From assembly GCF_021233415.1 (NCBI RefSeq), contig NZ_CP089466.1, positions 1,860,001 to 1,924,000 on the forward strand: 64,000 bases of DNA, written 5' to 3'. Position 1 is the stretch's first letter. Every line of letters starts with the position of its first letter. Source of the stretch: Halobacterium litoreum. Lineage in GTDB: Archaea > Halobacteriota > Halobacteria > Halobacteriales > Halobacteriaceae. The translations under genes and the position numbers were made by a program. The notes under the pieces were generated by a model, which was not told the DNA's origin, searched no databases, and worked only from the letters and a program-made list of their open reading frames with translations. This document shows positions 37,593 through 39,577 of the stretch, one piece after another.

Positions 37593-37779
37593 CTTGCGGA
37601 AAAAGCGGCGTCGGACCTCCTACGTGGGTCCTCGCCGCCCGCGCCGGAGGCGCGGTGAACGGCGCGCTCTGCGCACCGATGCTTCGTACCGGTCAGCCGC
37701 TCCGCTCGCCGAGTGCAAAGGTAGAAGTCCCGCGGGTGGAAAGGACGTTTTACGATTGGTTCGCGAGGAGACAGAGAGT
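37593..37779. other. 187-nt gap before the DUF2178 gene
   Basis: No gene seen. It contains short G+C-rich inverted repeats (for example GCCCGCGCC near 37638 with GGAGGCGCGG) and, near its right end, GTTTTAC at 37748-37753, about 28-30 nt before the next ATG, the likely TATA box. Confidence 0.5.
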
Positions 37780-38193
37780 ATGACAGATACGAACGTGGAC
37801 GGCACGGACCGACTGGCGAAGATTCGGCGCTACCGGCGACTGATGTACGCCTCGATACTCGTCGGCGTCGCCGGCTTCATCGCCGGGGACGAACTCGGCT
37901 ATCCGCTGGCGGGACTCGCCGTCTACTGGGCGGGCATCCTCTCGTTTTTCGGCATCTGGAAGGGGACGTCGGTGACGCTGTTCGACGAGCGGGACGCGGC
38001 CCTCGAACGCCGGGCGAGTCACGCGACAATCGGCGTCGTCGGCGTCATCGGCGTGCTCTCGTTCACGTCGCTGGTCGTAATCGGCGAGATGGCAACCGTC
38101 GAGGTTCCCGAACTCGTCTGGAACCTCTACCTCGGGTACTTCGCCCTGTTCGTGCTGTGGGGCGCCGTCTACACCGTCCTCAAGTACCGATGA
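37780..38193 (+). CDS. DUF2178 membrane protein
   Basis: 137 aa with four hydrophobic helices in two pairs (38-78 and 100-135) and a cytoplasmic loop FDERDAALERRASHATIG between them, the most conserved-looking part. The family has no settled function but often sits beside a small XRE-type regulator, as here: the HTH ATG overlaps this stop by ATGA. Likely a membrane partner or target of that regulator. Confidence 0.78.
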   Translation: MTDTNVDGTDRLAKIRRYRRLMYASILVGVAGFIAGDELGYPLAGLAVYWAGILSFFGIWKGTSVTLFDERDAALERRASHATIGVVGVIGVLSFTSLVVIGEMATVEVPELVWNLYLGYFALFVLWGAVYTVLKYR

Positions 38194-38399
38194 AAAACAG
38201 CGTGCGCGAACGCCGCGACGACGCCGGGCTGAGTCAGGCCGACCTCGCGGCCGCGGTCGGCGTCACCCGTCAGACCATCAACGCCATCGAGCGCGACCGC
38301 TACGACCCGTCCATCGAGTTGGCGTTCAAACTCGCACGGCACTTCGACTGCCGCATCGAGGACCTCTTCGACCCGGATTTCGACGTCGAAGACGCCTGA
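38190..38399 (+). CDS. XRE-family helix-turn-helix regulator, single domain
   Basis: 69 aa: MKNSVRERRDDAGLSQADLAAAVGVTRQTINAIERDRYDPSIELAFKLARHFDCRIEDLFDPDFD. The five-helix Cro/CI HTH is complete, with the recognition helix at TRQTINAIERD. It has no ligand domain; such single-domain proteins bind palindromes as dimers. It is coupled to the DUF2178 gene, and the double palindrome at 38450-38482 is 51 nt past its stop, ahead of the ABC genes. It may control both the module and itself. Confidence 0.85.
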   Translation: MKNSVRERRDDAGLSQADLAAAVGVTRQTINAIERDRYDPSIELAFKLARHFDCRIEDLFDPDFDVEDA

Positions 38400-38449
38400 A
38401 GCACCGATTTCCCCCGGATTTCGACTCACCGACAGATTTAGGTGAGAGT

Positions 38450-38482
38450 GTAAAGCACGCTTTACTGTAAAGCGTACTTTAC
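38450..38482 (+). promoter_or_regulatory. double palindromic operator before the ABC operon
   Basis: Two 16-bp palindromes, one T apart: GTAAAGCACGCTTTAC (38450-38465) and GTAAAGCGTACTTTAC (38467-38482). The four half-sites GTAAAG/CTTTAC alternate, so the centre CTTTAC-T-GTAAAG is also a palindrome. It lies 25 nt before an ATG and overlaps the place where a TATA box would stand. Probable repressor binding site; the regulator is not proven but the XRE protein just upstream is the first candidate. Confidence 0.7.
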
Positions 38483-38506: not shown

Positions 38507-38590
38507 ATGACCCGAGCCTCTCCCGACCACGCGAGCGATTCCGCGAACCGCCGGCGACTCACGGAGGAGACCGATGACGACCGAGTGTAA
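38507..38590 (+). CDS. 27-codon leader ORF before the ABC operon
   Basis: Starts with ATG 24 nt after the operator and encodes MTRASPDHASDSANRRRLTE plus seven polar residues, ending by overlapping the next gene's start in another frame (by 17 nt). It may be a leader peptide whose translation affects the next gene. It is short, polar and of no known family; it may equally be a chance frame in the transcript leader. Confidence 0.25.
   Translation: MTRASPDHASDSANRRRLTEETDDDRV
38563..38568 (+). promoter_or_regulatory. ribosome binding site of the 83-aa membrane protein
   Basis: GGAGGA with 5 nt to the ATG at 38574. A true Shine-Dalgarno site is unusual here for first genes of transcripts, and favours this start inside the leader ORF. 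Confidence 0.5.
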
Positions 38591-38825
38591 CGCCGACGCG
38601 CGAACGACGAACCCGATAGACGCCCGAATCGGTTCCCTGATGTCGGACGTATCGTCGTGGAGCGCGCTGTTCGTCGGCGCGCTCGCCGTCGCGCTCTCCC
38701 ACGAAGTCGCCGAAGCGCTCCCGCTCTCGGAGTTCCACCGGGCTCTCGCACTGTTCCCGGTGACGCTCGCGCTCCTGTACGGACTGCTGTGGCTGGCCGT
38801 CGCTCTCGAGGGGAGGTCGCGATGA
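38574..38825 (+). CDS. small membrane protein of the ABC operon
   Basis: 83 aa: a polar head, then two hydrophobic helices (SALFVGALAVALSHEVAEALP, and ALALFPVTLALLYGLLWLAVAL). A second possible ATG at residue 23 (MSDVSSWSALF) would give 61 aa. No family known. Its stop overlaps the ATPase ATG (ATGA), so it is translated with the ABC genes and may be a third subunit of the transporter. Confidence 0.55.
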   Translation: MTTECNADARTTNPIDARIGSLMSDVSSWSALFVGALAVALSHEVAEALPLSEFHRALALFPVTLALLYGLLWLAVALEGRSR

Positions 38826-39577
38826 CCGGACCCGCCATTCGCAGTGACGGCCTCACGAAACGCTACGGCGACGAGGTGGCGGTCGACGACCTCTCGCTAT
38901 CGATTCCACGCGGCTCCGTCTACGGGTTCCTCGGGCCCAACGGCGCCGGGAAGACGACGACGATGCGGCTGCTGTGCTCGCTCACCGAACCGACCGCCGG
39001 CACCGCCGAAGTGGCGGGCGTCCCGACGACCGACCGCCGGCGACTCGTCGACCGCATCGGCTACCTGCCCGCCGACCCGCCGGTCTTCGACGAACTCACC
39101 GGCTGGGAGCAGTTGCGCCACGTCGCCCGCCTGCAGGGGCTGTCCGACGGCGACGCCGACGCTCGCATCGAGGAACTCCTCGACCGGTTCGACCTGCTCG
39201 GCGACGCCGACCGCCGCATCTCGTCGTACTCCACCGGGATGACGAAGAAAGTCGGCGTCGTCGGCGCGATGCTCCACGACCCCGAGGTCGTCCTGCTGGA
39301 CGAACCGACGTCGGGACTGGACCCGCGGGCCGCCCGCACCGTCCGCGACACCGTCGCCGACCTCGCGGCTGGCGACACGACGGTCTTCCTCTCCACGCAC
39401 ATCCTCCCTGTCGTCGACGAACTCGCGGACACCGTCGGCGTCATCGACGACGGCCGCCTCGTCGCCGAGGGCGCGCCCGACGAACTGAAAGCGACCGCTC
39501 GCTCGGGCGGGAGCGACCTCGAAGCCGCCTTCATGGAGGTGACCGCGGATGACGACGCGCCGCTCCCGGACGCGTGA
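38822..39577 (+). CDS. ABC transporter ATP-binding protein (ABC-2 type)
   Basis: 251 aa. Walker A GPNGAGKTT (38-46), Q-loop region around YLPADPPVFDELTG, signature YSTGMTKKVGV in place of LSGGQ, Walker B VVLLDEPTSGLD, and switch His in LSTHILP. The altered signature (STGM) is known in exporter-type ATPases of the CcmA/NatA group. It powers the permease encoded next, whose start lies 29 nt inside this gene. The substrate is unknown. Confidence 0.9.
   Translation: MTGPAIRSDGLTKRYGDEVAVDDLSLSIPRGSVYGFLGPNGAGKTTTMRLLCSLTEPTAGTAEVAGVPTTDRRRLVDRIGYLPADPPVFDELTGWEQLRHVARLQGLSDGDADARIEELLDRFDLLGDADRRISSYSTGMTKKVGVVGAMLHDPEVVLLDEPTSGLDPRAARTVRDTVADLAAGDTTVFLSTHILPVVDELADTVGVIDDGRLVAEGAPDELKATARSGGSDLEAAFMEVTADDDAPLPDA

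Follow-up and report, generated by a model that had tools for sequence, protein, structure and literature searches.

A paired palindromic element, very probably the operator of a CylR2-like XRE protein, is phased to the predicted start site of haloarchaeal promoters

The window analyzed here is a stretch of 64,000 nucleotides from contig NZ_CP089466.1 of Halobacterium litoreum. It carries, in this order, a degenerate palindromic site, the gene of a DUF2178-like membrane protein, an XRE gene, a double palindromic site, a 27-aa leader ORF, an 83-aa membrane ORF and the genes of an ABC ATPase and a permease (Table 1). The membrane-protein gene overlaps the start of the XRE gene (ATGA) and the two form an operon; the pair recurs across haloarchaea and is also found in bacteria. 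The double site, noticed in a preliminary description of the DNA, consists of GTAAAG-N4-CTTTAC repeated twice with one base between the copies and centres 17 bp apart (38450-38482), and both copies proved to be exact. The first ATG of the ABC operon had been placed 25 nt 3' of this site. An ATG is present there (38507) but it opens only the leader ORF, the first sizeable ORF beginning at 38574 and the ATPase at 38822.

Table 1. Features of the locus (coordinates are those of the window)
Feature	Position	Strand	Remarks
Degenerate single palindrome	37738-37753	.	GGAAAGGACGTTTTAC, 2 mismatches; 27 nt 5' of the membrane-protein gene
DUF2178-like membrane protein, 137 aa	37780-38193	+	~4 TM helices, conserved DER motif
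XRE/Cro-C1 repressor, 69 aa, CylR2/DR_2454-like, proposed binder	38190-38399	+	Sequence and fold
Predicted ABC-operon promoter	38427-38443	+	CACCGACAGATTTAGGT; BRE-like CGACAG and TATA element TTTAGG (38437-38442)
Putative operator palindrome 1	38450-38465	.	GTAAAGCACGCTTTAC, exact match
Spacer T38466	38466	+	Predicted -1/+1 junction; T in 69/69 oriented operators
Putative operator palindrome 2	38467-38482	.	GTAAAGCGTACTTTAC, exact match
Leader ORF, 27 aa	38507-38590	+	Overlaps the next gene
Small predicted membrane protein, 83 aa	38574-38825	+	Present in some relatives
ABC ATPase	38822-39577	+	PF00005, DrrA-like
ABC permease, 560 aa	39549-41231	+	No Pfam match

Within the window, three matches to the palindrome with at most two mismatches were found where 0.18 were expected by chance. 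No further site with one mismatch or fewer was present in the rest of the genome (2,709,004 b searched), and a reversed control pattern gave no match in the whole genome. The degenerate palindrome 5' of the membrane-protein gene is a candidate for a weaker autoregulatory site; same-genus relatives and genome G044 likewise carry a single palindrome with 0-2 mismatches 5' of the corresponding membrane-protein gene. Because this site is single and degenerate here, autoregulation of the XRE gene may be weak in this genome, and because it is single and sometimes degenerate across the genus, repression here may act more strongly on the ABC operon.

The XRE protein matched HTH_3 (PF01381) with an E value of 2.2e-18 and 66.5 bits, against a curated cut-off of 23, and no second XRE homologue was found in its own genome at E<=1e-3. 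Its model adopts a five-helix Cro/C1 fold (pLDDT 91) that matches CylR2, C.AhdI, P22 c2 and 434 Cro and lies 0.5-0.9 Å from DR_2454 and CylR2. Cys54, in the segment HFDC, is invariant in 22 aligned haloarchaeal homologues and 95% conserved in 81, and might have a redox or metal-related role. The membrane protein of the window matched PF09946 with an E value of 0.0013 and 19.2 bits, below the curated gathering cut-off of 22.8, and the label is therefore kept to DUF2178-like. The same family was matched, weakly, by 18 of 21 relatives of the membrane protein at E<=0.1 (best 1.7e-7), and annotated features under homologue matches on plasmids carry the name DUF2178. The model of the membrane protein, with long TM-type helices, matched no solved fold.

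To locate the promoter, 58 promoters of membrane-protein/XRE operons were aligned on the operator; between -23 and -7 they share a BRE/TATA element with the approximate consensus cCGaCAGatTTAwRt. A matrix trained on these promoters scored 18.0 at 38427-38443, at the conserved offset of -23, the next best score being 1.3. Applied to 11 other promoters (those of ABC operons, of small membrane ORFs and two others), it placed its best match at this offset in 10 and missed it by a single base in the 11th, compared to 3% for shuffled sequences. In archaea, the centre of the TATA box precedes the start site by about 26-28 nt. With this spacing, the start of the ABC transcript is predicted at about 38467, the T/G junction between the two palindromes. 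A published account gives the distance from TATA to start as about 28 nt (PMC8553660). The spacer T is invariant though the symmetry of the palindromes does not require a T at this place; with the start at this junction, it would be explained as part of the initiator. The full consensus with its flanks, TGTAAAG-N4-CTTTAC-T-GTAAAG-N4-CTTTACA, has a 33-bp core, and a third degenerate copy follows 23 of the 69 operators compared to a background of 0.4%. The preliminary description had the operator cover the region of both TATA and start site. The predicted start site is indeed covered, but the TATA element is not, since it ends about 7 bp upstream in the promoter alignment; an operator lying on the TATA box is ruled out for the same reason. 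A leaderless start at the ATG at 38507, with the TTTA of palindrome 2 serving as TATA, was also considered and is ruled out by the position of the conserved BRE/TATA element elsewhere.

The motif and the XRE protein were both sought in the same 292 genomes of Halobacteria, of which 165 carry the XRE protein and 127 do not. The exact single motif was found in 123 of the 165 XRE-positive genomes and in one of the 127 XRE-negative genomes (Fisher p 3e-44, a value that overstates independence as the genomes share descent), and the association spans many genera. In the sole XRE-negative genome with an exact motif (G212), the single site is unpaired, and neither an XRE gene nor a known target lies in its vicinity. 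When one mismatch was allowed, the 33-bp double motif was present in 118 of the XRE-positive genomes and in none of the XRE-negative ones, and its reversed control had no match across the 292 genomes. Neither an exact single nor a near-exact double motif was found in 29 XRE-positive genomes, and those inspected carry degenerate variants. When motif loci were fetched blindly, an XRE gene was usually found within 1.5 kb and the motif directly 5' of a membrane-protein/XRE operon. This position accounts for 58 of 78 aligned double operators, and reciprocally a double site with at most three mismatches is present at 62 of 80 named XRE loci. Combined, the comparative evidence indicates that the adjacent XRE protein would bind the four half-sites as two dimers, as had been proposed, and the double site is very probably the operator of this neighbouring protein. 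As judged from the distribution of predicted sites, the membrane-protein/XRE operon is the primary, near-universal target (autoregulation) and the ABC operon one of several secondary targets. In four genomes (G058, G168, G230 and G268), the double operator takes the variant form GTCAAA-N4-TTTTAC T GTAAAR-N4-CTTTAC. Several of these variants lie close to an additional XRE paralogue of greater divergence, which suggests paralogue-specific recognition.

The absence of the motif from orthologous loci had been named beforehand as evidence against an operator, and this check turned out to favour one. Among the 25 loci of best permease orthologues, the operator was found in 15 of the 18 XRE-positive genomes and in none of the seven XRE-negative genomes. 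In one trans case (G162:C7), the XRE gene and the ABC operon, which has a double site, are on separate contigs. Double sites were also found 5' of serine hydrolases of the beta-lactamase family (PF00144; L105, L108, L109), of DUF3887 alpha/beta-hydrolases with lipoprotein-like starts (L097, L099) and of stand-alone DUF2178-like paralogues (L107, L110). The genes neighbouring these sites suggest a role of the regulon in envelope defence. In three genomes of one genus (loci L121, L122, L124), GTAAAG-N4-CTTTAC occurs singly, without a partner, just 5' of a gene for a probable secreted surface protein of 566-610 aa, the protein of L121 being without a Pfam match. A short leader ORF is present in most of the ABC-linked operators examined. 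The corresponding ORFs (L005, L034, L036, L037, L039, L114, L115, L130-L141) encode 16-41 aa and begin 20-40 nt past the predicted start site; most end at or overlap the start codon of the next gene, and their sequence is poorly conserved between genera. This overlap together with the poor conservation points to possible translational coupling.

Bacterial homologues of the XRE protein were analyzed at 11 loci from Alphaproteobacteria, Actinobacteria, Bacillota and one further bacterium. Exact GTAAAG-N4-CTTTAC was found within 700 bp 5' of the XRE gene at seven of them and nowhere else in the 44 kb of these loci; the remaining loci have variants such as GTCAAG-N4-CTTGAC. The spacings of the bacterial palindromes differ from the 17 bp of haloarchaea. 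As the palindrome is retained 5' of the bacterial genes at other spacings, the recognition sequence appears to be conserved, the double form with 17-bp centres and a T spacer being haloarchaeal. One locus was left out of this set: L170, on a contig labelled as a Gemmatimonadetes MAG (JADFNB010000001.1), has a haloarchaeal-type promoter, a double operator and a membrane-protein/XRE operon, and is probably a misbinned haloarchaeal contig.

We consider it highly likely, from these sequence comparisons, that the XRE repressor encoded next to the element uses it as a double operator, on which two dimers would straddle +1 and block RNA polymerase. One dimer would bind each palindrome, the pair covering about -17 to +16. 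With centres 17 bp or about 1.6 helical turns apart, the two dimers would lie on roughly opposite faces of the DNA; this geometry agrees with the different faces assumed in the preliminary description. TBP and TFB might still bind while RNA polymerase could not load, in the manner of LrpA and MDR1. With less confidence, and by analogy with CylR1, the DUF2178-like membrane protein might receive an envelope signal and release the XRE protein, which would derepress its own operon together with exporters or secreted hydrolases.

Several other explanations of the element were weighed against repression by the XRE protein. XRE proteins are able to activate, and this general property would allow the protein to be an activator or a dual regulator here; this is unlikely given that the operator is 3' of the TATA element and over the predicted start, a position typical of archaeal repressors. 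It is also unlikely that the operator is real and is bound by some other regulator, such as a general factor of haloarchaea, with the XRE gene a mere neighbour. The motif does occur 5' of genes that have no adjacent XRE gene, as such a factor would allow. However, the 118 genomes that carry the double motif are XRE-positive without exception, as are those in which sites were found in trans, none of the 127 XRE-negative genomes has the motif, and the bacterial XRE homologues have the same palindrome.

As RNA, each palindrome could pair over 6 bp around a 4-nt loop, with palindrome 2 placed at the 5' end of the transcript, so that hairpins in the 5' untranslated region might be envisaged. We regard this as very improbable: the position of the TATA element would leave the first palindrome untranscribed, spacings and positions vary in bacteria while the sequence itself is conserved beyond what pairing would require, and the palindromes are co-inherited with a DNA-binding protein. 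That the inverted repeats arose by chance and have no function has a negligible probability in view of the low number expected in the window, the class-wide conservation and the near-zero controls; a chance origin is already refuted by conservation.

No earlier description of this system was found in searches covering DUF2178, haloarchaeal XRE operators, YozG/YgzD and the motif, within an incomplete coverage of the literature. Systems of this kind are known; the operator, the regulon and their conservation across domains appear to be undescribed. A wider proposal, which we put forward tentatively and hold to be less probable than its contrary, is that a family of membrane-protein/XRE switches uses one operator code (GTAAAG-N4-CTTTAC) across Archaea and several bacterial phyla, that haloarchaea rebuilt it as a double site with a 17-bp period locked to the start site, and that the DUF2178-like protein is a membrane anti-repressor whose regulon serves envelope defence and includes ABC exporters as well as serine and alpha/beta-hydrolases. 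The analysis gives a widespread, uncharacterised haloarchaeal regulator a predicted binding site and a candidate regulon, and DUF2178-like proteins a testable role. It also offers a clear case in which a DNA recognition sequence was kept in two domains whose promoter machineries differ, the spacing of the operator having been refitted. For many haloarchaeal promoters, it predicts where transcription starts with no need of RNA data.

Among known systems, the archaeal unit resembles in its layout the CylR1/CylR2 switch of Enterococcus faecalis, a likeness by analogy that carries no claim of class membership. CylR2 (PDB 1utx) is, like the XRE protein, a small single-domain repressor (about 66 aa, 41-43% identical, E 5e-12 to 2e-13). 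In both cases the repressor is encoded with a small membrane protein, and CylR2 acts by binding at the promoter of the operon it regulates. CylR1 is a predicted membrane protein, the partner of CylR2, and is needed for induction (PMC3709268). In contrast, the membrane protein here is DUF2178-like with four helices and can at most be a putative relative of CylR1, the stretch examined showed no lanthipeptide genes, and the promoter is of the archaeal TBP/TFB type with a double operator of 17-bp centres. The closest solved structure is DR_2454 of Deinococcus radiodurans (PDB 9k3w; 55-56% identity, 0.5-0.6 Å over 61-62 residues), a bacterial protein for which no published function was found in the literature searched. 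The HTH_3 fold is shared with the Cro/C1 repressors of the 434, P22 and lambda type, which bind arrays of palindromic operators of 14-17 bp; the haloarchaeal protein differs in that its 69 aa include no separate oligomerisation domain and its putative operators form an array with a 17-bp period at the start site. Finally, LrpA of Pyrococcus furiosus and MDR1 of Archaeoglobus fulgidus have operators 3' of the TATA box and block recruitment of RNA polymerase while TBP and TFB remain bound (PMC2995911). The operator described here likewise borders the TATA box downstream, the start being placed by TATA spacing, but LrpA and MDR1 belong to unrelated protein families, and the present element has two palindromes in phase with the predicted start.
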